Positions 3,065 through 60,200 of a stretch of 64,000 bases of DNA are shown one piece after another; position 1 is the stretch's first letter; each line of letters begins with the position of its first letter. Below the pieces are notes generated by a model. The model was not told the origin of the DNA. It did no database searches and saw only the letters and a list, made by a program, of their open reading frames with translations. Source of the stretch: Macrocystis pyrifera (taxonomy: Eukaryota; Sar; Phaeophyceae; Laminariales; Laminariaceae). The translations under genes and the position numbers were made by a program. Location: assembly GCA_031763025.1 (NCBI GenBank), contig JASSKH010000040.1:757001-821000 (forward strand), in the 5' to 3' direction.

Positions 3065-3195
3065 CGGTGTGTTGTCTCTGTGTCGTAGTCTGTGACCACA
3101 GAGCTCGTATCTTTCTAGGGTGAAGAATCAGCACGGACACTGGGCTTGCTGGATGTCGACGAGTAGAAGAACGGTTTAATGTGAAGAACACACAC
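3065..3195 (-). repeat. Interspersed repeat family B, inverted copy
   Basis: The reverse complement carries all the left-half blocks: the left end near 3,190, GTCGACATCCAGC, the AGTGTCCGTGC block and the TGTGGTCACAGACTACG block. It lies about 330 bp from the 2,598 copy in opposite orientation, so the two can form a stem-loop. Confidence 0.65.
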
Positions 3196-4661: not shown

Positions 4662-5115
4662 CGTGCATACGCTTCCCCTACACGTAAATAAGTTACACTA
4701 CGTATGTAGCAACCTTGCTTAGACGGGACGGCGAGTGTATCCCCGACTACTCCTGGGTTTGCCCCACGAGCGCTCATGCCATGGAGGCGGCACGAGCTGA
4801 AGCATCCTTCGTCGCCGCCACGTGCCCGCGGTTAAACACGTGCGAACACGCTTGGGTCCTCTACTTTTCTTGTGGAAGGAGCCTCTACTTTTCTGGCAGG
4901 AGGAGCCTGATGCGCCCTCCCTACCCTCCGGAAAAGGTTGAGGACGTACAGCAGTAGGTGTGCTCGCGGGTGAAGAACAGCGGGCACGTGGCGGCGACGT
5001 TAAACGCTTAGCTCGTTCCGCCTCTGCTATGCCGCAGGCGCTCGGTGTGGGGCAGACCCAGGAAGGAGTAGCGCGGAATGTACTCGTCGCCCTTCCTGTA
5101 TTGACCAGGTTGGTA

Positions 5116-5221
5116 TTACTGGGGCCCATAGTTAATAGGACCTATGGTATACATAAAAAACTATATATTCACCTATTTTTACTAACAATATTTGGGTCCT
5201 ATTTACTGTGATCCCCCGTAA
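5116..5221 (+). mobile_element. MITE family A, copy 1
   Basis: The element starts TTACTGGGGCCCATAGTTAA and ends with the near reverse complement ATCCCCCGTAA. TA flanks each side, the signature of Tc1/mariner-type target duplication. Its A/T-rich middle contains CACCTATTTTTACTAACA, shared with the six other copies. Confidence 0.75.
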
Positions 5222-6106
5222 TAGATACGATATACCAGGTTCTGAGTTATATACTGCCATACGTACCAGGTTTTGTGAGACGACACACAAGCATTCGTGA
5301 TGACCGTGGGTGGGTGTGATCCGTATTCGGTATTCCGTATTCGGTAATCAGTATCCGGTGTGGTTGTTCTATCGCCATAGTCTAGTCCGCGGCCCGCGGG
5401 TCACAAAAATACCGTACCATATATCTGGCTCACGAGGCGGAGATCTCAGTGTCGGATGGTGTTGAAAAATGCGAAACCCTGGAGAACGATCTTGCGGTTA
5501 TCGCGTGACACTCTTGTGTACGTGAATGTTTTCGCTTGTTTTCCCTCCCTTTTTTTTCTTGTATACAACCAGCTCAACTTGTGGGAGGGCTTTTTTTTTA
5601 TGCCCGCAGCGGCATTCTGGACAAAGCCGTGGTCGCAGGTGTCTTGCTAGAATGTTGGACGTCGAACTCGGTACGTTATCGACGAACAAACAAAACTATT
5701 AATGGATACTTGTTTTGCGATTTTGATATTTTTTTACACGGAAGCTTTCGTTCAGTATCAGAATGAAAAACACGGGGATGCCAGGGTGATGGGGCAGAAC
5801 ATGGTCGACGCGAGACCTCGCACCGCAACACCTGCGGGAGTGTACCGTAAGTAACTACAGCAGTCGCCTTGATAGCATGCTTGGTAGGTATAAATAGCGT
5901 TTTCCGTTGCTTTCGCACCTGTAATAATTTGTAGACAGCTCTGAAACCTGGAGCAGTACATGGCCCGTAGAAGGCGGGATCGAATTTTTACACCCAAGCT
6001 TGCAAAACATGAGTTTTGATTAAATTTTCGATCTCACAGCTTCGGTTTTTTGTTTTAGTGTTTTCCTTCATAATCGAAACTTGGATGTATCGGACGACAT
6101 CCAACA

Positions 6107-6377
6107 CTACCCGTATAACACGCAAGATAATACACCCCCTCGCAACGGCTGCTGTGGCGAGGCTGCTTGTGATTTTTTTCAGACCCGGTGCCCTCCAAAA
6201 CATGCCTTAAGGAGGGCACGCACAGCGAAAATGGTGGCTCTGGAAATATTTCGTGGAGAAGGTTGCATAGACCCATCGCTCGGCGTATACATAACGCCCT
6301 CCCCGTTGTCGAAAAACCCAGCTTTGAAAATCGTGCGAGGGGCAAGTGTGTTGTCTTGCGTGTGTGTTGTACGGTAG
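6107..6377 (-). mobile_element. TIR element, about 271 bp
   Basis: The left end CTACCCGTATAACACGCAAG is matched by the reverse complement of the right end, CTACCGTACAACACACACGC, giving imperfect terminal inverted repeats of about 25 bp. Its core, read on the minus strand, contains CGCCGAGCGATG and ATTTCCAGAGCCACCATTTT, shared with the copy at 33,713-34,001. It has no coding capacity. Confidence 0.7.
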
Positions 6378-6607
6378 TCTTGTTGCCTCCTTCGAGTTTC
6401 TTTTTCTTTTTCTTGCACATGCCTTCGTTTCCGTGCATACATATTATGCCTGGTGTGGGGTTCAGCATTCCCAATGCTCGTCGATTTGCATCGAATTTGG
6501 TCACACATGCATATCCTGGTGTAATTATACATATACACGTACAGCCGAGATGTCTTATTTTTTTGTACATGAAGTATGTACGTACGTCACTGCTGCTATT
6601 TTTCATG

Positions 6608-7000
6608 GGTGTGTTCGGTACGGTACTACCGAGGCCTACCGGCGGTAAAATACCGCCGGTATACCTGTACCGAGAGGATTCGGTACGTTCGGTCTGGAGT
6701 TCTATACCGTACCGACAATTTCGGTACGTTCGGTCTGGAGTTCTATACCCTACCGAACATTTCGGTACGTTCGGCACGATGTCCGTACCCTTACCGGCGG
6801 TATCGGTATGATACACCGTACCGATACCGAGAAGCTCGGTATGTTCGGTACGATGCCCATACCGGTACCGAGAATTTCGGTACGTTCGGTACCATGTCCA
6901 TACCCTTACCGAGAACCTCGGTACGTTCGGTACCATGTCCATATCGTACCGGCGGTATCGGTATGACACAACGTACCGATACCGAGCTTATACCCTACCG
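6608..7000. repeat. CGGTAC palindrome array, block 1
   Basis: Repeating units of about 45-50 bp combine a small palindrome (ACCGAGAATTTCGGTA type) with TTCGGTACGTTCGGT and a spacer such as CTGGAGTTCTATACC or CCATGTCCATACC. Four or five palindromes are strung together. The right two thirds is nearly identical to the block at 7,365-7,705. Confidence 0.85.
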
Positions 7001-7364
7001 AGAGTACCGATCCCGGGCTAATCGGGAAGTTAGGCTCGGGACAACCCGGTGCCGGTACAGTACCGCCACACACATAGCACGCAGCAGCACAGCAGCACAG
7101 CAGCGTACCCTGCCTCATCGGTACAGCGGCCCTCATGAGCACCACAACACCCCCCCCCAGCAACAACGACAATGATGACCACGGTTTAGACGTTCAGGCA
7201 AGACAAATAATACCCGGTGTGGTAAGGCGCCCATCGAACTCTGGAAATGAATGTGATGACAAAACAAAAAAAAAAAAAAAAACTGTCGCAGACACACACA
7301 TTCTTGATGGGCAATACCATGGTACTGCTGTGGAGCGACGCTCGGTTTGACAAATACCGCTGGT
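7001..7364. other. Unique spacer between the two palindrome arrays
   Basis: The spacer contains CAG-type repeats near 7,080, a C9 run near 7,150 and an A19 run near 7,265. Open frames here are short and have no recognisable motif. No gene is supported. Confidence 0.4.
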
Positions 7365-7705
7365 ATCTGCGGTACGGTACCGGTATGGAGGTCTATACCG
7401 TACCGAGAATTTCGGTACGTTCGGTATGGAGTTCTAAATCGTACCCGAGAATTTCGGTACGTTCGGTCTGGAGTTCTATACCCTACCGAAAACTTCGGTA
7501 CGTTCGGCACGATGTCCGTACCCTTACCGGCGGTATCGGTATGATACACCGTACCGATACCGAGAAGCTCGGTATGTTCGGTACGATGCCCATACCGGTA
7601 CCGAGAATTTCGGTACGTTCGGTACCATGTCCATACCCTTACCGAGAATTTCGGTGCGTTCGGTACCATGTCCATACCGGTACCGAGCGTACCCGTACCG
7701 TACCG
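7365..7705. repeat. CGGTAC palindrome array, block 2
   Basis: The architecture is the same as block 1. The segment at about 7,490-7,690 matches 6,750-6,962 almost base for base, so one block arose by recent segmental duplication of the other. Confidence 0.85.
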
Positions 7706-8087
7706 AACACACCCTTGCTATTTTTCATCAGGTGTATCACATATATCACAGCAAAACTCTGTAATATGATATGCAATGATGTTCTACGATAAGATAATGA
7801 AACGACTTTTTTTTTCAAGTGCATGACGAGGTCCCCCCGCTTCAGAATCTTGAGCAGTAGACACGTACAAGTAGACATGCAATGATATCCTATGATAGAT
7901 GCGAGTATCACATGTACCGGGTATGATGGAAGGTCTACTCGGAAATCACTAAAAGGATACCATAGTAAGTATTGCGGGATTTCCGGCTTGCTCTGAGTTC
8001 TTTTGTTCTATCTCCTTTGCTTGGTCTCCCGTCATGCCACCGCACGGACCGACCCCCCCCCCCCACTCCCTTGCCCCTACCTCGAAC

Positions 8088-8262
8088 TGGCTACACCGGA
8101 AGTGAAATTAACTCATTGAAGCTGTCGTCCCTATGCAAGTCCGCCTCACAAGCGATTCTGGCTGATCGGTGAAAACCCGTCGTGCTCTGTCCCGGCATTG
8201 TACGATACGAGGGTCAATGGTCATACGACCACGGCCATGCATGATAATGAGTACACCCCCCT
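8088..8262 (-). repeat. Family C repeat, truncated, C-tract end
   Basis: The reverse complement carries CATGCATGGCCGTGGTCGTA, then GACCC and TGCCGGGACAGAGCACGAC, then the ATTAACTCATTGAAGC-type block, in family order. It ends at a C-rich run near 8,260. It lies directly upstream of the first recognised pseudokinase exon. Confidence 0.65.
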
Positions 8263-8327
8263 TCCCCTACCCCTGCCCCTCTTCTGCAACTCCCACTTCG
8301 CGTTTTGTTCCGAAACTGGAGTCTCAG

Positions 8328-8519
8328 AACGCGCCACTGCCCAGTAGCCCTACTGGTAGACCCTCCCGCCTGTTGAGGTGGAAAGCAGAGGGTGCCGGCT
8401 TTCAAAAGGAAGAAGACGGTGCTGGTGACGAGGAGGAAGAGGAGGGGGAGGGAGGCGAGGGGAGGCTGGTGTATTTGACGACATCTTGCATCACGCTAGA
8501 GGCTTTCATCAATGCCAAG
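8328..8519 (+). CDS. Pseudokinase exon a (beta4-hinge)
   Basis: The frame reads through RLLRWKAEGAG, an acidic run of Glu and Asp, and then RLVYLTTSCITLEAFINAK, which fits strands beta4-beta5 and the hinge of WNK-like kinases. The end is AAG before gtttgc, a weak donor in phase 0. The start is uncertain: CTCAG before 8,328 is one candidate acceptor, and an AAAGCAG near 8,380 is another. Confidence 0.55.
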
Positions 8520-11500
8520 GTTTGCGCCGTAGATTGGGGGCGGCGTGCATTGTAGCGGGGGTAGAGTTTACGTCCACCGTACTTGATTGGGTGCAGTGCA
8601 GGTACCGACTGGTGCTGAGAAAGGCATCGTCTACTGCTGCAGTAAAGATTCCACTGCTGTAATAATCAAGACAGCAGTATTAGGGAAATACACCAGTGAA
8701 ATACATGCTGGATTTAGCTGGTATAATGAGGTGTTATTAACACTGGGTATATTAATACAAGTAAGTAATTATTGAGGAATAGAGCAGGTACGTTTTGGGG
8801 ACAGTCAGCGTTGATAGATAGTAAAACAACAAACAGTGACTGCTGTATTATGTTACAGAAATGATGATCGACACAGCGGTAGCAGCAACGGAGCAGTCGG
8901 TGACACTGCAGAAGCAAATGCAGTAGTAGCGCACAGCAGTAGCAGTACCACAACAGGCTAGTCGGAGAGAAGCAACGAAAAGCTGCGAAAGGTATTTATT
9001 TGCAACCCTAGCCCTACGGCTACTGTTAATATTAGTATTAATAGTATCGCCCCAAACCCCGATCGCCCCAAACCACCCTGTTTTACTTATTTTACAACTT
9101 TATTTAGACTGCACTTTTGTCCTACACAACTTCCAAGTACGTTCTCTCCGTAAGGCGTGGGGGCAGTTCTCGACTACCAGGCAACTACAGCAGCAGTGGT
9201 ACTGTAATTATCCTCGTATATAGTCATATGCACCAGCAGCACGACTTTATATACAGCAGTACATACCTGGTATATATTAAATAATATACCCAGATACTTG
9301 ATAATTTTGCCAGGCACCAGGTACGCATTGTGTACTACTAATACCGGTAATGTACTACCGCTCTGACCATTAATATAATAGTTGTGTGGACTGCAATATG
9401 CTGATCTAACGGCGCTTATATTTCCGGTCAATTTGGTACAGTAGTATTAATAATTAGTATTAATATTGCAGTTGCAACAACTATTCGTAATATTAATAGA
9501 AGTACAGCAGTACTCTGTAATACTGCTCGTGTCATACTGGTACTAATAACTGCTTTTGACGAAGCGCTGAAGGGGTGGGTGGAGGGACGGAGGGATGGAG
9601 GGAAGGTATTGATACTTGGATCACCATGTTTTCGAGAAAATGGTTGACAGACACTGCTGTGTACAGCAATGTTCACCTATTGATAACCCTGACCCGACTC
9701 AACCAATGTTGAGATCTATTAGTAGTGGGTTATAGATGTACAGCACCAAGACAGAGCAGTAGTGCTACAGCTATTAATAGCTGTAGTTCTCGTCGTTTCG
9801 TGCACAGAGCAGTAGTAAAAATGTTCGTCAACCGTTTTCTCAGTATGTGGTGACCTCTGCTGGAGGGATGGGTGGGTGGTCGGAGGAATGAGGGGAGTTC
9901 ACCACTTATTCGAGAAAATGGCCGAGAGTCACTTTGTACCAGACGAATGAAAACTATCGATAAGGCCGACCCTAAACCAATCAGACCAAATCAACCATTC
10001 TTGGTCAGAAATAGCCCCTTTGTCTCGTACACAGTCTATGTCAACCATTTTCTCGAACTAAGTGGTGAGCTCTACTGGGAGGAATAGAGGGGATGTCGAG
10101 CGATATATTGATGGGTTGGATGATTGACCGTTCTGCCGAACCGCCCACGTCCCTGCCCCCTCCCTGCCTACCTCGCCAGGTGGAGCTTTTGCGTTGGCGT
10201 GTGGTGAAGCGGTGGACCGCTCAGGTTTTGGAGGCTCTCGCGTTTTTTCACAGCCAGTCTCCGGCTGTCGTGCACAAGTGAGGAGACGGAAAACTGTCCT
10301 GTCTGACATATGGCGCCGGCACATTGGTTTCTTCTTTATTTTCAGTCGACTTTGTAATTATTCGTTTTTGTGTTTTGTTGCGTCAGTGCAGTGCGCGCGC
10401 TAATATGTACCAGGTACCAGGTATCTCGTTTTTTTTTGTTGTTGTACTATACGAATAGTTACCTTGTGTCGTTATCTCGTCGTTTCGTTTCCTTGTTATA
10501 TATCTCGTCATTTTTCTCTTGTCCTGAGGTCGTTATTTTCGTTCTGCTTGCCGGCACGTCGCACAGCGATCCGGAAGGCCCTTGAAAGCAAACCCGCTTC
10601 CGGTTCCGCCGCTGCTCCCCCCCCCCTCGCTCCCGCCGCGCGATTTTATTTTGTGTTTTCGCTGATTGAGTGCCAACCGTAACCGATCGCGCCGCCGTCC
10701 ATATCCAGCAGCAACCACAGTCTCGTCCCGTGTAAAATCGTGTTTTCCGTCGCGCCTCCTGTTCCAACAAGTGATGCCGCCGCTTCAACACCACACCGCT
10801 TATTCCGCTGCTTACTTGCTCCTCCTCCTCCGCTTATTTCGCCGCTTTCTTTTTTAATCTCGTTCTGTATATTAAAAAAAATATATGAACAGGAACCTGT
10901 CCCTCGACAGCATCTACATTGACACATCCAAGAGCCACATTTTCGTGGGTGGGGTCGAAGACATCATTGCCCCGGCGTGCCCTTGCCCCGGCCCCCTCAG
11001 GCCGGCGCCGCCCCAGTCCGGTAGCGGTCGCGGCGGCGGTAGCGTCAACGGAAGGGGGGGCCACGGGAGGAGCAGCCAGAGGAACGGTCAGAAGAGCTGG
11101 GGGGGCAAGGCGTGGCACCGTGTGGTCGGGGGGGGGGGAGGGGGGGGGGGGGCAGGCGGGACGAGACCACCAGCCCGAGGGTAACCAAGACCGGGGTAAC
11201 GGTGCGGGCAAGGACAACGAAGACTACGGTTCTGATCGCAACGGTAACGGTGGCAACGATGAGAATGGTGGCAACGATACTAAAGGTGCCACCGACCCCG
11301 ACGGCAGGGTTAACCTTGACCGTGAGCCTGCCGCGGTCGTTCAAGTTGCCGACGGTGGTAACAGCGGTACCGGTGGCGGCGGCGGTATGGCGGCGCCTGG
11401 AGGCGACGGGGAGCCCCGCGTGGCGGCAGCGGCGCTGGTGAGAGTGGTGGAGCCACCGGGGGCGAAACGTGACGTGCGCACCTTGGGAACACTTCTGATC

Positions 11501-12574
11501 GAGATGGTCCTCAAGTGAGTTGTTCGTGGTTACCTGTTGGGTGGGGTCAGGGTTTGGGTTGGGGTTGTGTTGACGTGCGGCAGGCAGCACGTGGGCGGGT
11601 GAGTGGGTTGGTGGATGGGTTGGGTCAACCGGAGGATCAAGCAGAGAGACGGCAACACACTGCTCACGTTGGGTAGGGCTGGGGTTGCGTCGGTGCGGCA
11701 TCTCTTGGGTGGGTATACAACGTCGCTCGATGGACTCAACTGCTCTCGCTGCTGTGGACGTGCCGTTGGGGAATGGTTTTCGTATTGTTTCGTTTTTTGT
11801 TTTGTTTTTCAGAGGAGGGGGGAGGGGGGGAAGGTTTACTCATTTGTTACTTGCCATAGCCATTTGACCGTTGAACATGCATCCCCTTCGAGACGGGGGG
11901 GGGGGGGGTGTACTCGGTAGGAGAGATGTACTCGATCTCATGCATAGCAGTAGTCGTATGACCATAGACCCTCGCATCTCTATAATGCGGGGACGGAGCA
12001 TGTCGGGGGGGGGGGGGGAAGGGGGGGGCGGCACTCGGCATCATGCATGGCCGTAGTCGTATGACACTCGCATCCCAACAATAGAGTGTTTGCGAAAGTG
12101 TTCTGTGTTTCTTGCCTTCCCCAAAGTAAACACCGAAGGTAGGAGTTGAGGTGAGTTCTTGAAAAATGGACGAAAAATTATTTATTACGTATGTATCGTG
12201 GGTAGGAGTTTGACCAAATGTATGATACGTATTTCTCTCCGTTTCATTGGCTTGTAAGCACCGAGCATCTTCCATGCTTCCACGCACAATGCTACTTGCT
12301 GTACACAACACGACAACCGCTGGGAGCACAGAGGCTCGAGAGGTGTAGTATAACGCGGACTAGCGGCGTTGAATTGTGCCAGCGGACGGCCGCCGGCGCG
12401 CCGCTACGGTACGCTCTCGCCCGCTTGGTGACGTGGAGGATGCGTCGTCCCGAAAGGACTCGTACTTGTACTCGTGCTCGTGCTCGTACCGCCTTGGTTG
12501 TAGAGCGCGACAGCATGACAGCTCGTGTACCATTTCAATTCCACCATGCTGCTGTAGCAGCTGCAGCTGCAGCT

Positions 12575-12616
<42 letters not shown>

Positions 12617-15600
12617 GAAGAGCTGAGCGCGCCCGCGCTGTGGCGCGCGTAGGCCGAGCGCAACAGCAGCAGCAGCAGCAGCAATCGCAAAATGAAAAAA
12701 ATGGAAGCTGGTGCTGATGATTATTATTGTTGTTGCTCAAGCTAAAGCTGCCCCTACTTTAGCTGCGGCTAGCGCTAGCTGCCGTTGCTACTCGCACGCT
12801 GTCTCTTTGTTTCTCTTTTTGTTTTTTTGACTGCCGCGTTGCCGAACATCCCCAGTTCCCTCCTCAATTTCGGAGACGTCGCTTGCAGGATTTGGTTTAC
12901 CTCCTCCACAAACACCACGATCATGATGGGAAGGGAGTTCACTTTTTTTAGCGGAGGGAAAGAAGTACATTTCTGCAGTCTTTTTCGCAAACACTCTAAT
13001 GACAGGACGAAGCACGTAGGGGTTTCACCGACCAGGCAGGCATTGCTTTGCTACACGAGGCGCGAAGCACCGTGAGGTGTTCCGCGAGTCCCCTGAAGGA
13101 TGGGCTACATCCTACTGAAAACCACTTGTGAGGCCGGCTTGCACATGGATGATGACACCTCCAGTGATTTATTTTTTTTTTCCCGTGATGTGGCCACTAG
13201 CAAAGCAGAAATGGGGGTACCATGTAACTGGCTCGTGGATCCCTTAGCATGAACACTATTATCACGTGATGCGATCATTCCTCTTGTGGGGTGTAATTTT
13301 TTTTCCAGCCCGCACAAATGATCTACAACTCGATCGCCGGTCGTGACCGACCGCCAAGAAAGCGTCGAAGAAAAACGGTACCCGGTAGTGAGCGGCATGT
13401 TTTACAGTGTCGTTGCCAACCGACGCGCCAACCCAACCTACAACAGTATATACGACAGCTTTTTCCTTTTTTTATTTCTCTTTCGTTTTTTTTTTCTCGT
13501 TTTTTTTTGTTTTCTCTCTTGCTTTAGATTGTGTATGTCGTGCCTGTCGTATTTGAAGACGTGAACATTGCGATGTCTACTCTGCATACGAGTACTGCAT
13601 AATAATGTAGTATCTAAAGATGTACTGGTACATAGCGCAGCTCTGTGCCCAAAGAACTTGTATCTCTATAGGATTGAAGAATCGACACGGACACTGGTTG
13701 TGCTGGATGTCGACGGGTCGAAAGAAGAACAAACACGGGTGATGTTATAGGGGGCGCGGGGGGGGTATAATAGCGAAGGTTGCATTGCGTAGACGTTCGT
13801 AGTGCTGTAGTTGTGATCTTTCGAGACCATCGTCTTTGTTATCTTTTTCGTCGTCGTGCTCGAATCAACCGTGGGTTGTCGGAGCCGCCATTTTCATAAT
13901 CCTGGTCGTTAGCGTCATTACCGATTTCACTATCAGTACACCACCTTGCGGAATGTCAGTCAGTCTCAATGCAATTTCTAGACGTATACGTATATATACC
14001 TACACTCCTGCTGCTGCTGCTACTACTACTACTACTGCCGCCGCTGCTAGTTGCTATATTGGTATTCATAAGATACCATGCCACTGCTGTCATTTCTACT
14101 ATCAATACTGGTATTAATATTACTAGTACTACTGCTACGAGTACTACTACTACTACTGTTTCACTACTAATAGCGATTGTTGTTGACAGGAATATATTTC
14201 CCCTCTGCCGTTCCTCTGTCTGTGCCCCCCCCGCTTCCCCCCTGCTCCACGCCACGATTGGAACGGAAACCCTTGCAGGAAGAAGTTGGACCCGGAACTG
14301 GCGGGGTGCGATCACTTTTTGGCGGCGCTGCCTACTATCTCGGGCTGGCCGTCATCCGTTGTCGACTTCCTCCGCCTTTGTCGAGCCCCACCTGAGGAGG
14401 TGAACACGCACAAAAAAAAAGGAAAAGAAAAAATGTGCATCATCGTACTTACTCTGTTGTATTTTGGTGTTGGTGGTCGTGTTTTTACGTTTCGATTAGT
14501 GTTCTATGGTGTTAATATTAAATAGTCGATTGACGAGATGAAACACACAGCACGACAAAATAAGAATATTCTTCATCGTACCCACATGTAGGAAAAAATG
14601 ATCTGTCCGCTCTGTGAAAAGGATTGCCCCCAAAATTCTTCCGGTGGTGTTGTGTGTGTTTTCACCTTCAACCGTTCTTACTGCCCGTCGACATCCAGCA
14701 CATTGTCAACCAGTGTCCGTACGGATTGTTCTACCCTATTAATATTAATAGTAGAGATGTAAACTACGCCACGGAGACACGGCATTGTTTTGCAGTAAAC
14801 ATATTAATAGTAGACAAATCCAATGCCATGTAATCATACTAGGCACGACATACACTTTCTATGAAAGAGAGAAAACAAAGAAAAACAAACAAGAAAAAAG
14901 TAGGAAACAGAAAACATGTAAAATTAATCGAAAGAGCAGCAGGAGAAAAAAAAAAAAAAATGCGTGCATGTGTGAAGGATAATATTAAAATAACTTCATC
15001 GTACAGCAGTAGCAACCCTCACGTCGATAATGATGATGACAATTATGATAATAATTATCACGATGATTTTGATGATGATTGGTGATGATATTGCCGCTAT
15101 TGATAGCGTACGACGATGCTGATGATGATGCCAACGATGGTCACGGCGATGCCGGTGAATGTTTTGTGCCGCGGCAGAGACCCACGGCGGAGGAGCTCCT
15201 CGCCCACCCGTTCCTGGAGATCGGCACCGATATAGACGACGAGCCCACCTACCGCGACTCTGGGGCCATCGAGGCAGCGGGCAGGCTGGCGGTGGAGGAG
15301 GCGGAGGCGGTGGAAGAGGAGGGGGAAGGGGGTCAGCTTGGGGCGGCGGCGACGGCGGGAGCGGGAGCGGGAGCGGGAGCGGGGACCGCGGCGAACGTGG
15401 GGGCCCCGCCCACCCTCCTCCCCCTGCTGGTGAACACGTCTTGTTCGAGGGTAACAGGGTCAACATCTTCGTTGTCATCGTCGTCAGGAGCGACGACACG
15501 AGCGGGGGGCGGGTCGGCGGCGACGTCGCCGTCTTCGTCCGCGGCGGCAGCGGTGGCGGCGGCCGCGGCGGCGGCGGCCAGCGCCGCCGCCGAGGTGCCG

Positions 15601-16636
15601 GTGGTGGCCGTGGCCGGCTCGAGGCGATCGTCATGTTTTAGGTTCCGCCGCGGCCAGGTTACACCGCCCCCGCTCTTCGTGTCTCCTGCGACCGTAGCTG
15701 GTAGTAGCGGTAGCGGTAGTGGTACCGCTGCCGATAGTAAGCCTATCCAGCGGGATGACCCGTCCTTCTCTGCCGACTCCGGAGGAGGCGGGGCAGGGGC
15801 GGGGGCGGCGCGGGGTTGGCCGAGCTACGCGCGCTCTCCCGGCTACCCCCCGTCCTGCGTCTCTACCGAGTCCCCTTCTCCCTCCTCCCCGTCCGCCGCG
15901 CCATCCTTCGGCGGGGTTCCTACGACGCCATCCCCCCCGGCAGCCAGGGGTTTCGCTTACGACCCCGGGAATTCGGGGGGGGGGGGGGGAGCGGGAGAGG
16001 GAACAGGGACAGGAGCGGCGGGTGTTGCACCGGGCGCGGAAGGCGGGGGAGGAGCGGCGGGAACAGGGGGGTGGGGTTGGCGGGGTCGGGGGGTGGGGAG
16101 GGTTGAGCGTTCGTGGGAGCGCGGGAGGCATAGTGGGGCGCACGGGGAGCCTCCCGTTTCTTCCCCCCGGTGTCTCGGCGGCGACTCTGGCTAACGCTAC
16201 AGCGATCGCGGCTAGGATGGGCGGCTCGTTTTCGTCGAACGCTCCCAGGCAGCAGCAGCATCAGCACCCTTTCCGGGTGATCGGGGGGGGTGGGGCTCGG
16301 GGGACGACCCTTAGTGGAGGCCGGAACCGTTCCATGTCGTACTCGGACCGCCAGCACATGCTCTCTGCAGCGGGCGGAGGAGGCGGAAACGGGGCCGGGG
16401 GGCGAGGGGACAGGTTCGGGTCAGGGTTTTTGGGCGGTTCGTTCGCCGAAGGAGGCGGGGGTGGGGCCGCGGGAGGTGCGGGGTTGCCAAGCGCCAGCGG
16501 CAGCATGGCTTCCATGGTCGGTCGCTCGCGCTCGGCCTCGGAGGATGCGGTGTGGGACATGCTCCCTTCGGACGAGTCTCAGTGCCGCAGGCCGTTTTCA
16601 GTGAGCGCTGTGGAGGGTCGCCATGGATACCTGTGA
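8328..16636 (+). CDS. WNK/NRBP-like pseudokinase, split gene (N-lobe not found)
   Basis: Five exons give a protein-kinase C-lobe in correct order and compatible phase. The hinge strand is LVYLTTSCITLEAF, the alpha-E helix is WTAQVLEALAFFH, the catalytic loop is HKNLSLDSIYI (joined across an intron), the alpha-F region is VRTLGTLLIEMV, and the final subdomain is RPTAEELLAHPFL. WNK kinases have HRDLKCDNIFI in the loop and NRBP pseudokinases have HGNL; here the catalytic Asp is Asn. The DFG position reads VGGV. Loss of both aspartates predicts a catalytically dead scaffold or adaptor. A low-complexity insert of roughly 190 residues separates the DFG position from alpha-F, and a Gly/Ser-rich tail follows the domain. 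The glycine loop and VAIK lysine were not found upstream, so the gene may start outside this model or be truncated. Two exons are each one base too long for a continuous frame, both in stretches with G-tracts; this may be assembly error, alleles or decay. The WNK-versus-NRBP assignment is inference. Confidence 0.7.
8520..9600 (+). other. Pseudokinase intron, left part
   Basis: This is A/T- and CAG-rich sequence with many AATATTAAT and CAGCAGT motifs. No exon or RNA gene is recognised. Confidence 0.4.
9621..9853. mobile_element. TIR element in pseudokinase intron, copy 1
   Basis: The left end TCACCATGTTTTCGAGAAAA plus TGGTTGAC is mirrored at the right end by GTCAACCGTTTTCTCAGTAT plus GTGGTGA. 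Terminal inverted repeats are about 27 bp and imperfect. It has no coding capacity, and a sister copy lies 46 bp downstream. Confidence 0.65.
9900..10068. mobile_element. TIR element in pseudokinase intron, copy 2
   Basis: CACCACTTATTCGAGAAAAT at the left is matched by the reverse complement of the right end, CACCACTTAGTTCGAGAAAA. The ends are related to copy 1 at 9,621, so this is one small family. It ends about 110 bp before the next exon. Confidence 0.65.
10180..10277 (+). CDS. Pseudokinase exon b (alpha-E helix)
   Basis: The acceptor is CTCGCCAG and the donor is gtgagg. The 98 nt read VELLRWRVV, then WTAQVLEALAFFHSQSPAVVH, ending with two bases of the next codon. The Trp, Gln and His positions match the W..QIL..L.YLH....P.IIH pattern of WNK and NRBP proteins. 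Confidence 0.75.
10893..11514 (+). CDS. Pseudokinase exon c (catalytic loop to alpha-F, frame break)
   Basis: The acceptor is TGAACAG. One base completes the Lys codon, giving HK-NLSLDSIYID, then HIFVGG at the DFG position. A Gly/Arg/Ser-rich stretch follows up to G11-A-G13 at 11,128-11,152. After this the coding pattern continues in another frame (GRDHQPEGNQDRGNG, then VRTLGTLLIEMVLK). The exon length is one base more than the splice phases allow. The donor is gtgagt in phase 2. A hidden intron inside the low-complexity stretch is the alternative explanation. Confidence 0.6.
11840..12075 (+). repeat. Family C repeats with G-tracts, tandem fragments
   Basis: A head module (ATTTGACCGTTGAACATGCA then TCCCCTTCGAGAC) runs into G14. 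Then comes GTGTACTCGGTAGGAGAGAT with the CATGCATAGCAGTAGTCGTA core, a second G-tract, and a third partial core. It lies in the intron between exons c and d. Confidence 0.65.
12550..12682 (+). repeat. GCN/GGC and CAG trinucleotide repeats
   Basis: GCAGCT units are followed by a (GGC)n run at about 12,577-12,613 and a CAG run at 12,662-12,682. Long open frames across it are poly-Ala, poly-Gly or poly-Pro in all frames and are not evidence of a gene. Confidence 0.8.
13018..13450 (+). repeat. Family C repeat, long copy
   Basis: The copy runs from TTTCACCGACCAGGCAGGCA through GCGCGAAGCACCGTGAGGTG, the CTTGCACATGGATGATG block, GGTACCATGTAACTGG, GATGCGATCATTCCTC and GACCGACCGCCAAG to the CCAACCCAACCTA end. 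It lacks the G-tract head. It lies in a pseudokinase intron. Confidence 0.7.
13568..13738 (-). repeat. Interspersed repeat family B, inverted copy
   Basis: Reverse-complement blocks GTCGACATCCAGCACAACCA, GTGTCCGTGTCGATT and a GAGATACAAGTTC block appear in family order. It lies within the pseudokinase intron. Confidence 0.6.
13985..14165. repeat. CTG/CTA trinucleotide-rich tract
   Basis: Clusters of CTGCTG and ACTACTACT are separated by unique sequence. The tract ends about 115 bp before the exon d acceptor. Confidence 0.7.
14279..14399 (+). CDS. Pseudokinase exon d
   Basis: The acceptor is CCTTGCAG and the donor is gtgaac. Its first G completes the Lys codon begun by exon c, and the following 40 codons include VVDFLRLCRAPPEE, matching the FI..CL..DP..RP helix of kinase subdomain XI. 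It joins in phase 0 to RPTAEELL in exon e, which strongly supports the model. Confidence 0.75.
14655..14890 (+). repeat. Interspersed repeat family B, long copy
   Basis: The blocks match the 487-735 copy, including the CTACGCCACGGAGACACGGC block and the A-rich right end, with two ATTAATATTAATAGTAG-type insertions. It lies in the last pseudokinase intron. Confidence 0.65.
15178..16636 (+). CDS. Pseudokinase exon e (C-terminus, Gly/Ser-rich tail)
   Basis: After GCGGCAG the frame opens with RPTAEELLAHPFLEIGTD, which closes the kinase fold. An acidic/Ala/Gly-rich tail follows, then Pro/Ser-rich sequence (TESPSPSSPSAAPSFGG). Around G15 at 15,975-15,989 and further G-runs to 16,100 the convincing pattern shifts to another frame, with AATLANATAIAARMGGSF and SMVGRSRSASEDAVWDML, ending at TGA 16,634-16,636. 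Staying in the first frame gives a stop at 16,194 instead. The tail has several RSxS-type sites that could be phosphorylated; this is inference. Confidence 0.6.
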
Positions 16637-16647
16637 GCCTGTAACCT

Positions 16648-16950
16648 ACCCATTGATGGGTACCCAATGACGGGTGCCCAATGATTGAGTACCCAATCAG
16701 GGGTACCCAATGACGGGTACACAATGATTGAGTACCCAATCAGGGGTACACAATGACGGGTACACAATGATTGAGTACCCAAGCAGGGGTACCCAATGAT
16801 TGAGTTCCCAATGATTGACTACCCAATAAAGGGTACCCAGTGATTGAGTTCCCAATGATGGGTACCCAATGATTTGAGTACCCAATGAAAGGTACCCAAT
16901 AATTGAGTTCCCAATGATGAGTACCCAATGAAGGGTGCCCAATGGGTTCC
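16648..16950. repeat. GGTACCCAATGA minisatellite
   Basis: About twenty degenerate units of 13-15 bp (GGTACCCAATGA, with TTGAGTACCCAATCA variants) are organised into higher-order units of about 41 bp. It begins 12 bases after the pseudokinase stop codon, so it probably lies in the 3' UTR or just beyond it. Confidence 0.9.
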
Positions 16951-18590: not shown

Positions 18591-18776
<186 letters not shown>

Positions 18777-20502: not shown

Positions 20503-21960
20503 TAGATTCAGGCGATATTGATCGGGAAACTCTTCAGTTTTGTACCAGATCGTACGAAAAAAAAAAAAAAAAAATGTCGGGGGTGAGGTCAGGTCGGCCC
20601 AACGTGCCCTAGCCTCAGGGGCAACAGCGGACTATTCTGATGTTGCAATGGGAACTATGGCTCATAAATTGACACACAACACGAATTTCGAACCTGGAAA
20701 GTGTAGTGACCTTAAGCTTTGTTTTTACCAAAATCCGCCGGAGGATTGAAAAAAAAAAAAAAAAAAAAGTTGGCCTGAAAGAGTGCGCTCTAGATCTTTC
20801 TCCCTCTTCTCTCCTATCGCAGGATGTATTTTTGTTCACCTGGAACACTGGGTTCGCACCCACCCCGCGTTTCGATCGATACCGCCAAAAATGTATGAGT
20901 AGGTCAATGTGTTGAACGCCTTCTTCGTGAATGCTCCTTGTTACATTCTACTTCCTGAGACTACATTTGAAACCGAAGAAGTGCTGTTTCTGTGTCCCCG
21001 GGATCGTCCCTGATTTGCTGTGTGCCCTGAGTCTCTGCAGCTGGCACCTACCTGTCACCTGTTCCGGTCCAGCTGGCGGGACATCAGATTATCTCGTTAG
21101 TACTATATATATATGACGAGACGAGGCTGAGAACGACGCTGAGAACGAAAACAACAAACATCCACATGTCAATACAAAAACCGCTAACGCAGAAGCTTCA
21201 GGCAGTTGGGAGCTTGACCACTGCCATGCCCTAGATCCGTCACGTTCGTCATTCCCACTCTTTTACTAATAATAGTATTAATAGGCTGTGTGGAAGAGTC
21301 TGTAGTGTCATCACTACCATCAACCAAACAAAAAAACAGAAAGGTTGTTGGTAGGATATATACTGAATGTCTTTTTTCAAACCAAGATGAATAAATCCCA
21401 TATCCTCACCCAGTACGACGACGAGTAGTTATTAATAGTACCGATAGCCAGCGCGCAGACAGACGCTCTCAGTCTGAGCCAAACCCCGCCTGCCTGCCTG
21501 CCTGCCTGCCGGGGTGCCGTCGATGCCGGTGCCGACTGGTCTCTCTCGTCACCCTCACCAACTCCGACCAACTGAACTGCGACTGACTCCACAAAAAAAT
21601 GAGACAGGCAAACTGAGAACCGGAACAGCGCTCGAATGCATCTCATCGAAGGCGTTAAGAACTACATCGTATGTCCTGAACCAAAATGAAACGAGTGGCA
21701 TACACGTTTTCGCGTGCATGCATAGCCCTGAGGGATCGCCAGGCCGCTAGGGGAAGGGAGGAAGAAGCCGGAGGAATGCGACCAATGGCCTACTGGGGAT
21801 GGAACGTTGATTAGGAATAGGATATATTGTACCGGTAGCTAAAATGAAATGATGTGGGGGATGGAAATGGGAAACGGCTGGCAGAGAAGCATATGAGGGA
21901 TACTACTGATCTGCGGAAGGATATTTCGGTTTATATATGAACGGCATCTACGCTATATTG
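20503..21960. other. Stretch without recognised genes
   Basis: It contains poly-A runs at about 20,557 and 20,750, a CCTGCCTG run near 21,487-21,511 and short frames without family motifs. Confidence 0.4.
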
Positions 21961-21972
21961 TCGGAAGGCAAG

Positions 21973-22706
<734 letters not shown>

Positions 22707-23341
22707 AATAATATATGTGCATGCGCATGCAGCTGCTGCACATACATACTTTACCTGATGATTGGTATACACGCTTTTTTTTGTTTTTGGGGTTTCGTCA
22801 AGAATTCCAGGCGTGCCACCGTGCCACCCCTTGTGGACCCCTCCTTGCCCTCGCTCCCAACCACTTGACGAAACGTCTGCGCTCGGTCACTGCGAGGAGA
22901 AATTATACGCACGAGAAAGCAGGTACTCTTTTTAGCGGCCGAGCACCACATGTCCACATGTCCACATGAGATTCATTGCGGTCCCATGGAGGGGTGTGGT
23001 CCCCGAAAAATCCAAAAGTCTCCAAAACCGCTCTCTCTCTCTCTCTCTCTCGCAACTCTGTTTCCGAAGCGTACGTGAGACAGGGGACAGGGGGGGTGGG
23101 GCGGATACTCATTTATTTGTTGCTTGCTCTTTTACCCTCATCCCTACGAGACGGAGCACCATTCCTACTCCTACTGCACAGTAGAGATGCCTCCAACGTC
23201 TGGGTGTTCATTACGTCGTTTCCACATATATTACATATGAAACTTCTCTGGCTTATCTTATCTCCTTTATGTTTCGCCGCCTCTAGCCACACCATTTATC
23301 TCCCAGGATATAGCGATCGTTTTCTCGCTGCTATCTATTAA

Positions 23342-54296: not shown

Positions 54297-57200
54297 CTGT
54301 TCCAGCAAGGCGGCGTCCAGCGAAAGGGAGGAGGGGCCGGGGGGATGGGGAATGGCGCAGGGGAAACTATCATCAAATGTACAGCGTTGCGCAAACCCGC
54401 GCAAGCCCGCGCAAATGATCAAAAGGCCGGGAGAGCGTACGCGATACGTAACGTAGCCCTTGTTTCCTTTCTAGGGTCCAGGCACAACGATCAAAACATT
54501 GAGCAGCACCATCTCGCCGACCGTCTTCTAGGGTGAGGCGATCTGCAGTGCCAACACATGCCGCTAGCGTGTTGTACTACAACTCCTCGCAATGTATGTG
54601 TGCACTGCGGTTCCGGCACTAAATGTAATATTCCCTAACCCAGAAACGCCGAAAGTTGGTACCTGTGGCCTGACTCGCAGAGTATATACGACGCGACAGG
54701 TGCATTTCACCCCCCCCCCTCCCCTAACAAGGTCACTTCGGTGTTCGCCATTCGTCGCGACCGCGCCACCGGAAAACATTTTGAGTCTGTTCAATCGTCG
54801 TCTGTTGTCCACACTTTTTTCACTCTGGAGTCCCAAAGAGGTTCTGTTGATCTCCTCGTACGCTATGAACCAGCAACATATGATGCACACCTTCTCGACG
54901 ATCGGGAAGATCAACGTCACCAGCTCTCCCCCGGGGCTAAGCAGCGATACCATGTGGTCAGCCCAGTCGTTCCGAACGCTTGGATCGAGCGCGCTGCATG
55001 CCAAAGGACGGAAGGGGTGGCGTGAAAGTATGAAGCGCAATGCTGGTAAGGGCAAACCATGATGGGGGCTATTCGGGAACAGTGTTGATACGCCCTTGGC
55101 AGATAGTATTGTAGCACAGGCTTGCGCTGGTAGTGGGTAAATACACTACCTGGCTGGTGCTCGGAAAGTGCACCACCCATATTCCTTAACAGAGGCGCTG
55201 CCAAACAAGTATATTTGTTCGCATGTTGCTACCATAACTACCTTGGACGAGTTATCCCGTACGAGTAAGCGCAGTGCTAACTGTTGGTGCGCAATGAGTG
55301 CTTATTGGCGATACAAATCGTAGTTTTACCAAAACGACAAAACCAATTACTATTAAGTCGTCTTACCAAAACCCAAGACCACCATTACGACGCTGCGGGC
55401 AGCTGGTGGTGCGCGCCGTCAATGAAGACATTTGATTGAACTTTGCTACCTTGTGAACAACGCATTTTTTGCGAAGTCTGGACACAAGAACCGTGAGGAC
55501 GCGAGGGCCCCGACGTTTGGCATATGCAAATGTCGTCTGGCCCCACACGCGCGCGACGGCGTCATATAAAGAAGCGATCGCCTCAAAAACAGACAATTGG
55601 TCACCGTACCAGCAGCAAACACATATTAATAGTACAGTAAGAGTCGCCAAACTAGTTCAACGCGGATCACCGACCGCCGCCAATACCCTCCCGAAGTGAC
55701 CGGGTCCGCGACACGCGCCGTTGCCCTGCTGCTTGGGTTTCCCCCACCATCTAAAACCTACTACTCGTAGCTCAGACGGGCCTCAACCTTTGTTTTCAGC
55801 GTAGTGAAGGAGGCAAATGACAAACGATATACTGCATGCAAGATCCAGACGAACCTTCATTATCCGAAGAACTAAAACCTAAAGGAGGGCAAACGATAAT
55901 GACATGGAAGATGGACGAGATCCGGACGAATTTTCATTATCCGAAGAACTAAAACCTACATGAGGGCAAACGATTAATGGCAAGGAAGATGGACGAGAGG
56001 CGTGAGCATCGCGGCCATCTCTTCCTAGTAACCACTTTCATTGATATGCTTTTGTTTCACGTTTCCTCCAAGCGGATGGGTAATGATCGTCACACTTTCA
56101 CATGTATAAGACGCGTGCTATGATATAGGGAGCACTTTTCGGTCAACCTATTCCTGACTGACCGGTTTCCTTAACCCGATATCATTGGAATACCGATACC
56201 AGTAGTAGTGTTTTACTACGAATATACATTTCGTCAAATACCTACAGGATTTAGGATTGTTCGTCGGTTCGCACTTTTATCTTTTCTCAAAAAAAGCTTC
56301 TAGGTGAGGTATAGAGCTCCTATACTGTGATCAAGTGAGGAGTCTCATAAAATGTTGGTCCTACCTCTGTCAGGCAAACACGCGTCAAAATATGCGCCGT
56401 ACTGTCAACTTAATCCATCGCTCCCGCGCCTCCCGTGGCAAAAGCAGCGCGGGTTGCCGGTACCTTGGACGTGTGAACACGGGTATGTCGACCCGGCCTC
56501 ATCCCGAGAGGATCAGGCGCGGTAGAGAGAGCCACCCGGGGTTGCTCGTCCACGCTTTACGCGTAAGCTCCCCGCGGCAACGGGGCGGCGAGAGACTCAC
56601 CAGAGAAAGGTGTAGTCGAGGATGACGTCGAAATTCCCCTCCTCTTTCGCGGAAAATTTGAAAAAGTCGCCTGACCTGAATCTCACCTTAGAACGAGGAA
56701 GACGCAAAAGTGACACGAGACCGCCGGCTTTAATATCGTATATAAGGTCAACATAAAAATAAACCCACATAAAATGATGGCACAGCACTCTCTCTCCGTG
56801 GAATGCGCGACGACCAAATGTCGACTGGCGGGTCCGTTGGAAACGAATCAGTGGTACATAGCTGTACAGAGAAACACGGCAGTCTGGTTTGGCGGGATTC
56901 GAATGAGATGGTCGAGGCTCTGCCGTTTGAAGGTCAGGGGGGCTGCGAACCAGACGCCACTACGCACTTCGTTCACAGTTGTACTTGAAAATTATAAAGC
57001 ACCAAACACGTTTAGTTCTCGCACAGACGTCAAGATAGTCTCCCCCGTTCATCCTAGGCGGAGGTGATACAAATCGGAAATTCGGTGTATGGGTCTGGCT
57101 CGCGAAGGCAACAGAATAGACCAGGGGATAATCGGCGCAAGCATCCGCTCATTCTATTGTGCTGCATATATGCTTCGTATACCAGATACAGGGGTATTGG

Positions 57201-60200
57201 TATACATTGTCGTCACCTTGCCGCTGGGCTGCTCCTTCTGCTCGGCGAGAAGAGCGTTGGCCTGCCCCACCCCTGTTGGGGAGAGATCGAGGCCTAACGA
57301 GTCGTACCCGCTCTTGCCGAAAGCGATCGCGTCGTACCCACGGCCGCAGCCGGCACAAGCGACCGACCCTTGGGGAGAATACCTGAGAGTATCATAACAC
57401 AGACGGCGCCCGCGAATAAGGAACTCGAATTTGGCGTCGAGACTCAATTTCTTATTTTGTTGCCAGTATTAAGCACAGGCTACTCTTGGCTATTCTGTGG
57501 GGTTTAGAATGGCACCCTACCCTGAGCATCGTTGTTTTGTTCAAACGAAATATTTCGCGTCCCCGAATTCGGAAAATAAATAATTACCTCTATTTCCAGT
57601 ACGATATTATTTAATCACACTTTTCTTTTTTTCATCAGATCACATCCTTTAGTTGCAAGTGATTTCAATAAACCAACCTCGAAAGAGAAAACTATCCTCA
57701 ATTTCTTGCGACCGAATTTCTCAAGAGCGGGCACCTGTTCGTATGCATGGAATCTTCAACACTGACAATTACGTGTCGGTTCGGGATACTGGCCGATTCT
57801 GGGTTATTTGACTCTTATATTTCGAGTTTGCGTGTTTGTGGTGACGCCCAACAGGTCACTCACTCTCTCTGTCTTTATCCTCTTCGGACGCCACTTATGC
57901 ACGACCTGAAACTTCCATACATAGACAGCCCTGCAATCTGGGCTAATGGGCCTCAAGCTACGAACACTCTAGAGTGTTCGTACCCACGCAGCCTTACGGG
58001 TGATGCAGTTGGAGATCTACGGGTACAAGTATTGGAGCAGGGTCTTTCTCTCGAAGAGCTGAAACAGGCGAGCACAGACGCTGAGGAGCGTCGCAAGACA
58101 TATCGTGATGAGCTGATTGGGATGATGGCCGTACTGTTGAAGACCAGCCGCGGACACAAGGCGCAGAGAGAGTTAGGTGGGCAGCAACCGCCACCCACCG
58201 CTGGTGCAGCAGGGAGAGGTGCTGCATCACTACCGTAGGAATTCTCCGACAGCGCCGGTGGGAGCACGGGGGTTGAACGTGTTCCCGCGGAAGCTGAGCT
58301 CCGTGGGGATCAGCTTGACAGGAGAGGACAAGGCAGGGGCTTAGACCTCATAGGAGAGAACTCCTCTATCACACACGGTGGTCTGTGGTCGGCAATTTCT
58401 GGCACAGCCTAAAATGGCGGTGCCTCTCCTGAAAGGGCGAGGGAAGTTTGAGTGTTTTCCAAAACAAATGCAGTTTACAATAAGCTCCGTATTTGGTAGC
58501 GACCGGGACCTTGAGATTAGTGCAGATGGGAACGACAAAGGGTCCCCATGGCCCACGGCGTGACAGCCTTGATGTACTAGAGGCAGCTGATGGCCTTCGT
58601 ATTTATGCTTAAACTTTGCAGTCTAATGTCGACAAGGTTAGATTCCAACGTAGTATAACTTCGAGAACGTCTTGACAGGAGGTCGTGGGCTGGCACGACA
58701 CGAAAACCAACGGCCAGCAAGGTTCGCGCATCAGACAGACAGTACAATTTCAAAATCGGCAAGCAGGACGACCCTGTAAAGATTTTGTACGAGATGGAGG
58801 ACTTGCTCGTGAGTTGAACAACGCGGGACTGAGCGTGAATGACAACACTCTGTATGCATGTTTTGTCTCTGCCTTTCCTGCTGTCGAGTATGCACTCGAG
58901 ATTCGAAATATCAAAGATTCGGAATATCAACGCCAAGCAAAGCTTACGGCCGGAACGAGACCCTTCACCTAGTTCGCAGCTTCTGTAGTAAGAGACACTT
59001 CTCCTGTCTTTCGGCGAGTCGAAGGGCTCGTCAAACGCCCTTGCTCTCCTCAGCAATGGAGGGCGCGGCCGCGGTGGTAGAGACAAACGGGGTCAGGACG
59101 GAAAAAAACAGCAAGGAAGACGGAAACGACGGCGCAACCGCAGGAGCCGCGAAGAAGAAGGATTCGGTGACATGTAGCCGATGCAGAGCTACGGGCTACT
59201 ACAGCGACAGCTGCATCACCAAAGACTACAACGGGTGAGGTGGCAGAGAACACGAGAGCAGCAAATGCGGATCGCCGGTGGAGATGGGGAACGTGTTTAT
59301 GATGGTGGAGAGTCCCGGAGACGCAGCCATGGACACGATGTCGTTTTACGGGAGCAGCAGCAGGTGCAGCAGCAGCAGCAGCAGCTAAAAGTCCCAAAGC
59401 GGAACAATAACCATGGGTACCTCCGCCGTGTGTAGCGGCAGAGGGACTTTAAGCGGCATTTGCCGTGCGCACTCCACCACGGGGAGATGTAGCAGTGGAG
59501 GTGGAATACGTGCGGGTAATCGCGGAGCGAGGGGAAACAGGTCTGCACAATTCGCAAGAACAGACGGGCGGCGACCAGGCGGTGTACAGCTGGCCGCGTC
59601 GACCGGTGGGGGGAAGTCACGCGGTGTACTCGTAATCCGCGCTCACTCTACTGCGGGGAGATTGGTGGTGATGGTAGCGGACATGGAGGAATCGTGAGCT
59701 GTCTGCAGCTGTGTTAACTACGAGGGGTGGCACGTTCGCATGGCCTCGCCGCGAGCACTGCAAGACAGACGCATTCAACGATAGGGGTGGTATTTTTAGG
59801 CCCAAATATTCATGCCTGATCGGGGTTCCTTAAGGGCACTGAGGAGGTACCCAACATCGTTTATTTTTACTATCGCTTTTTCGTTACAGACCTACTGTTG
59901 TAGGCTATGGGCATTGTTCATCGGGTAAAGTATGGATTTTTTGGTAAAGAAAGGCAGTGTTTCGGATGAGATGCAGCGCGTCTCAGGCGAGGAGCCACAG
60001 AAAATTGCAGGCGTACTCGACCGTAGCATGCGTCGACAGCAGCAGCAACAGCAGCAGCAGCGAGAGGTTGTGTGAGGGAGCAGACGTGGTTATGTTGTCA
60101 GCAGGAGCTTTACGTGATTCCGGCAGCACTAATTACCGGGGCAACGGCAAAGCGTATGACTCTTTCCTTGGGGATGTTCATAGGAATAGTAAGTGACTTC

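Follow-up and report, generated by a model that had tools for sequence, protein, structure and literature searches.

Dead kinases are a common class of proteins. One of them, NRBP1, is without the VAIK, HRD, and DFG motifs and is said to bind neither ATP nor cations (PMC12266122). Recent work has shown that, despite its dead catalysis, this protein activates the WNK salt/volume pathway; the study describes activation of WNK4 in vitro and a modelled pairing of NRBP1 with the WNK1 kinase domain (PMC12266122). One survey reports NRBPs in animals from the earliest lineages onward and, as far as its cited portion goes, none in choanoflagellates, fungi, amoebozoans, plants, bacteria or archaea, the cut-off being a BLAST E below 1e-28 (PMC12254500). 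For the oomycetes, the portion of the kinome account used here gives one WNK in the OTHER group, three inactive OTHER kinases, and many inactive kinases overall (PMC3019232).

Herein we describe a set of exons within a window of 64,000 nucleotides (the whole stretch of DNA that was analysed) whose spliced translation, referred to below as the query, is a protein-kinase C-lobe resembling that of the salt-sensing WNK family, probably from a WNK-like pseudokinase. We lean, if only slightly, toward reading it as the C-lobe of a real, intron-split eukaryotic WNK-like kinase gene that has lost catalysis.

Exon model and its surroundings

The gene model consists of exons A to E, with the following features.

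8328..8519, + strand: exon A, tentative; an acidic stretch, then GRLVYLTTSCITLEAFINAK (beta-5/helix D region); open, with a phase 0 donor to the phase 0 acceptor of exon B
10180..10277, + strand: exon B; VELLRWRVVKRWTAQVLEALAFFHSQSPAVVH(K), helix E up to the His of HRD; acceptor and donor both rank 1
10273..10277, + strand: His codon and the first two Lys bases of HKN; the codon is completed by 10893-10896
10893..11514, + strand: exon C; (K)NLSLDSIYIDTSKSHIFVGGVEDIIAP, a low-complexity stretch, then DVRTLGTLLIEMVL (helix F); acceptor rank 1, donor rank 1 by a narrow lead
10945..10956, + strand: VGGV at the DFG position (translation, alignment, and codon check)
11128..11152, + strand: G runs of 11 and 13 with one A between, inside the overlap of the exon C frames
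11471..11512, + strand: helix F core DVRTLGTLLIEMVL, its Asp kept (profile rank and coordinate check)
14279..14399, + strand: exon D, tentative; KKLDPELAGCDHFLAALPTISGWPSSVVDFLRLCRAPPEE; rank depends on the profile
15178..16636, + strand: exon E; RPTAEELLAHPFL (helix I), followed by a long tail rich in Gly/Ala/Ser/Pro; acceptor rank 1, two frames needed
15975..15989, + strand: G run of 15, inside the overlap of the exon E frames

To score splice junctions, a profile of NRBP1, WNK1, and an Arabidopsis WNK was applied to AG and GT sites over both strands of the window, with every phase of a site counted as a separate test. It should be noted that the reference sequences of this profile and of the trees below are working versions; that of NRBP1, compared at 11 published positions, agreed at all 11. 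With this profile the exon B acceptor ranks first of 21,462 (21.1 vs 13.4 bits) and the exon B donor first of 24,804 (29.4 vs 10.4 bits), while the exon C acceptor is first both of 7,156 in its own phase (18.1 bits vs 12.0 for the next) and of 21,498 over three phases (16.7 vs 13.3 bits). The exon C donor (helix F) is also first of 24,804, with a narrow lead (13.8 vs 13.0 bits), and the exon E acceptor is first of 21,462 (21.3 bits; the runner-up is this site shifted by 2 nt, and the next place scores 10.9). These top-ranked sites lie on one strand, in order and in phase, within about 5 kb.

The remaining exons rank far lower. The donor of exon A is placed 886th of 24,804 without gaps and 1,595th of 16,803 with gaps, and for exon D the ungapped ranks are 1,271 of 24,804 (donor) and 11,624 of 21,462 (acceptor), the gapped rank being 1,622 of 16,784 with a wrong frame at the same donor placed higher (1,313). 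Among the 184 in-frame candidates between exons C and E, exon D takes 13th place when scored with the WNK/NRBP profile; a broader profile of the kinase C-lobe puts it 1st (24.2 vs 23.6 bits). Such low splice-site ranks do little for the first and fourth exons as the original prediction had them, and we assign A and D to the gene tentatively.

The N-lobe, which the original prediction left to be located, was found neither upstream nor elsewhere when the profile was run over the 2,384 window ORFs of at least 15 aa, in which only the ORF of exon B stands out, as the sole significant match (E 1.7e-6). A Pfam scan of the upstream frames likewise gave no N-lobe match; it is uninformative on this point, as the known exons escaped a scan of this kind too.

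The surroundings are rich in repeats. Directly 3' of the stop at 16636 lies an array of 14-15 nt units of the TACCCAATGA type (16647-16945), and 235-nt near-duplicates, 97% identical and built of CGGTACGTTCGG-type sub-repeats, are at 6712-6946 and 7445-7679. An interspersed repeat of 50-64 nt occurs in both orientations at 2631-2694, 3121-3171, 13660-13723, and 14651-14700, its pairs being 72-91% alike; a 29-base pattern taken from it had 0 exact matches in the viral and bacterial/archaeal collections. A very long trinucleotide array at about 21940-22790 would read as poly-Asn, poly-Gln, poly-Ile or poly-Leu by frame. Runs of G or C that reach at least 8 bases number 53 across the window; the longest, of 122, is at 18655-18776. 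A Pfam scan of 84 of 182 selected window ORFs returned a TPMT-like (thiopurine-methyltransferase-like) gene, with one ORF at E 1.4e-5, and weak methyltransferase and peptidase matches; two pieces that match such a TPMT-like gene, below the Pfam cut-off, are at 54900-54995 and 57217-57393 on the - strand. Scans for tRNA and Rfam families of the window found nothing.

Catalytic positions and reading frames

The original prediction held that HKN stands in place of HRD, and the codons at the junction bear this out. After splicing of the + strand, the exon B–C join reads VVH-K-N-LSLDSIYIDTSKSHIFVGG, the 3' end of exon B (10277) being CAC AA/gtgagg and the start of exon C (10893) gaacag/G AAC CTG. 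Because the exon B donor leaves AA, the next codon has to be AAN, so that with this donor only Lys or Asn, and never Arg, can follow the His. VGGV at the DFG position is likewise confirmed by codons 10945-10956, where the place of the DFG Asp is taken by Gly (10951-10953) in one alignment and by a gap in the second, the Asp being absent in both. Hence both catalytic aspartates are gone, as claimed, and so is the catalytic-loop Asn, which has become Ser at 10909-10911, a change that was absent from the original prediction. The intact HRD and DFG aspartates of a WNK are thus replaced by HKN and VGGV, and the loss of both motifs is that seen in NRBP. A search of the + frames from 5000 to 16700 for unsplit motifs (H[RKCGN]D plus a hydrophobic residue, HRN, D[FLYW]G-type, and APE-type patterns; intron-split motifs would escape it) found no HRD, DFG, or APE in the gene, the matches falling at two places only, HRN at 5821 and HCDV at 13566, within the C-D intron.

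We consider it most improbable that the model is in error and that the locus encodes an active kinase whose true catalytic exon was missed or mis-assembled. The exon model was built from genomic sequence and the frame problems described below would fit an imperfect model or assembly, but the exon B donor forces AAN as the next codon, the + frames of the gene hold no HRD- or DFG-type motif in one piece, and the exon C acceptor is the best in the window.

Around these lost residues the helical core is kept in sequence. Helix E, the helix F core, and the final helix were said to be intact, and all three are present in the spliced translation, the last as RPTAEELLAHPFL with the Arg-Pro-Thr block of helix I. 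That helix E, the Asp of helix F, and the Arg of helix I remain speaks for a folded core, and the loss of the HRD Asp, of the Asn in the loop, and of the DFG Asp, together with the missing APE and the low-complexity stretch, speaks against phosphotransfer. This low-complexity sequence occupies the place of the activation segment, unless part of it is an unseen intron.

The exons do not form the single continuous frame that the claimed phases implied, as there are two frame changes inside coding exons C and E. In exon C the reading has to pass from the frame that stays open to 11181 into the one open from 10889, and in exon E from the frame stopping at 16194 into the one that is open from 15698 and contains the end at 16636. 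If each switch is placed within its overlap, the exon frames are without stops; a composition test of the two overlaps did not locate the switch points. GT-AG introns that would mend the exon C frame have many formal solutions, none of which, among those listed, restores DFG or APE, so that no one solution is favoured over the others. Since the frame changes fall in overlaps that contain G runs, assembly error, a hidden intron, and pseudogene decay could all produce them. Long G runs are frequent sites of assembly error, and the simplest reading is an error of this kind in the G runs; a hidden intron (in exon C) or real frameshifts are possible.

If both frame changes were real, the locus could be a decaying pseudogene of a WNK-like kinase whose motifs were lost by neutral drift, a reading that we regard as unlikely, though less so than the other rivals considered here. 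The frame changes themselves, the strong divergence (44/145 identities to NRBP1), and the weak exons A and D would all be expected of it. Nevertheless, the well-supported junctions keep intact, in-phase splice sites, the exon frames (with the switches within the overlaps) are stop-free though most aligned residues differ from WNK, and the overlaps contain long G runs of a kind that is common in the window (53 G/C runs of at least 8 bases) and error-prone in assemblies.

Relationship to WNK, NRBP1, and other kinases

Comparison with known families places the query among protein-kinase C-lobes, with the helix E–DFG stretch closest to WNK among solved structures. Up to an E of 10, this 60-aa stretch has matches to 32 different PDB sequences, and the best 15 are all WNK1 or WNK3 (3.2e-6 to 2.4e-5), followed by GCN2 at E 1.4e-4; by this measure helix E and the catalytic loop are of WNK type. 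WNK also leads when a 171-aa composite is compared with the PDB, with PAK and STK10 leading in the helix F–I half (best 60 of 337 matches). The composite, which is without the low-complexity stretch and the N-lobe, reaches 29.8 bits with Pfam Pkinase (PF00069) against a cut-off of 31.7; for this span of the human NRBP1 reference sequence the score is 73.2 bits. Two NCBIfam matches are both far below their cut-offs. In shuffle tests the beta-5–DFG region gives z-scores of 17.7 with NRBP1, 18.6 with WNK1, and 17.9 with plant WNK, and the helix F–I region low ones (6.4, 1.8, and 5.2, respectively). The beta-5–DFG alignment has 12 invariant columns common to the query, NRBP1, and two WNKs, including Trp32, Gln35, Pro48, and Asp58. 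Over the aligned C-lobe the identities are 44/145 to NRBP1, 38/149 to WNK1, 45/148 to plant WNK, 39/145 to PAK1, and 35/147 to MST1, so that 70-75% of the aligned residues are unlike WNK and NRBP1. Searches of viral contigs for relatives gave 28 pattern matches with the query and 22 with a four-sequence alignment, 0 of which were confirmed in either case.

In six-sequence trees, the query, WNK, and NRBP1 stand apart from PAK1 and MST1 with a support of 100 (IQ-TREE) and 1.000 (FastTree), and within this group the query is joined to NRBP1 at 61 (IQ-TREE) and 0.708 (FastTree). When the four catalytic columns are masked, the IQ-TREE support for the query with NRBP1 falls to 52 and FastTree places the query beside PAK1 and MST1 at 0.304, the NRBP1 grouping being lost. 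A good part of the link to NRBP therefore comes from the altered catalytic positions, and convergence would produce these changes as well.

These data bear on whether the query belongs to another family altogether, as a GCN2-, STE20- or TKL-like pseudokinase whose likeness to WNK is confined to the catalytic loop. GCN2 is second in the PDB search (1.4e-4), PAK and STK10 lead in the helix F–I half (among the best 60 of 337 PDB matches), the identity to PAK1 is 39/145, and the masked FastTree tree is unresolved. We still regard this as quite improbable, given that the 15 best of the 32 PDB sequences matching the helix E–DFG stretch are WNK and that the spacing before the HRD His is as in WNK and NRBP1, unlike that in PAK1 and MST1.

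The NRBP-type assignment made in the original prediction stood as to pattern and not as to descent. As in NRBP1 (HGN), the HRD Asp has become Asn, and both the loop Asn and the DFG Asp are lost; the identity to plant WNK (45/148) equals that to NRBP1 (44/145), and the support declines from 61 to 52 on masking. In the reference sequence used here, NRBP1 has an ordinary activation segment with an APE motif, neither of which is seen in the query. The two tail frames consist of 53-60% Gly/Ala/Ser/Pro and gave no Pfam match to a CCT domain, the tail frame being broken and maybe incomplete; as a control, the tail of the NRBP1 reference sequence gets no better than E 0.13 with OSR1_C, which is under the cut-off, so this Pfam test is barely sensitive and the apparent absence of a CCT domain from the tail is weak evidence.

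A true NRBP orthologue outside animals, which would make NRBP older than Metazoa, is in our view very unlikely. It would account for the Asp-to-Asn change at HRD, for the absence of loop Asn and DFG Asp in both proteins, for their common KRW stretch in helix E, and for the joining to NRBP1 at 61 (IQ-TREE) and 0.708 (FastTree), but masking lowers the former to 52 and abolishes the latter, and the identity to plant WNK is equal. Moreover, NRBPs are reported absent from the non-metazoans examined in the cited part of the survey, although with its strict cut-off (BLAST E below 1e-28) a protein this divergent would be missed (PMC12254500).

In weighing the reading that we slightly prefer, that of a real WNK-like kinase gene that has lost catalysis, we counted in its favour the rank-1 splice sites in order and in phase, the WNK-led PDB matches, and the frames that are stop-free despite divergence. 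Counted against it were the two frame changes, the failure to find an N-lobe, the weak exons A and D, the low helix F–I similarity with PAK and STK10 leading there, and the unresolved placement of the query in the masked FastTree tree at 0.304.

Proposed function and comparison with described kinases

We now put forward a hypothetical function for such a WNK-like gene. With its catalytic residues changed, the protein is probably a dead kinase that acts through partner binding. It would carry out no phosphate transfer, as it has neither the catalytic base nor a metal-binding Asp/Asn, and would not bind substrate in the normal way, as the normal activation segment is missing. We propose that the kept helical core (helix E, the helix F Asp, and the helix I Arg) would instead provide a binding surface, and that the protein would most likely act as a pseudokinase partner. 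It might, for instance, bind an active kinase of the WNK or STE20 type in the same cell and alter its activity, in the way that NRBP1 acts on WNK4 in vitro and is modelled to act on WNK1 (PMC12266122). A binding partner or allosteric regulator is the best reading by analogy with NRBP1; we infer, as the original prediction did, a possible scaffold role, and any naming of the partner or of an osmotic role would be a guess.

It is also possible, though doubtful, that a pseudokinase derived from WNK emerged here outside animals, independently of and parallel to NRBP, with the same Asp-to-Asn change in the loop and with a long disordered insert in place of the activation segment. If so, inactive WNK partners evolved more than once. 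In the literature searched (titles and abstract openings, among the matches listed) no WNK-like pseudokinase in algae is described, which is not proof of absence. A WNK-like dead kinase outside animals would make the recurrence of dead partners in WNK signalling testable; a pseudogene or a member of another family would be an ordinary case.

Compared with WNK itself (human WNK1 and WNK3 and plant WNK), the query has in common the spacing before the HRD His and the Trp in helix E. The WNKs, however, are active kinases with intact HRD, loop Asn, and DFG, whereas all three are changed here, and low-complexity sequence without APE replaces the activation segment. A further WNK trait is the shift of the catalytic Lys from beta-3 to beta-2, a position that would lie in the N-lobe, for which the window ORFs gave no match. 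The likeness to NRBP1 and NRBP2 lies in the Asp-to-Asn change at HRD, the loss of the loop Asn and DFG Asp, and KRW in helix E. The query differs from NRBP1 in having HKN where NRBP1 has HGN, and its identity to NRBP1 is no higher than to plant WNK; in addition, the cited part of the NRBP1 study gives that protein a C-terminal CCT domain, of which none was seen here by a test that is weak (PMC12266122). The same kind of change, Asp to Asn in subdomain VIb, is described for CDK-like proteins of Phytophthora infestans in the portion of the oomycete kinome account cited, but these differ from the query in belonging to the CMGC family and are not WNK-like (PMC3019232).
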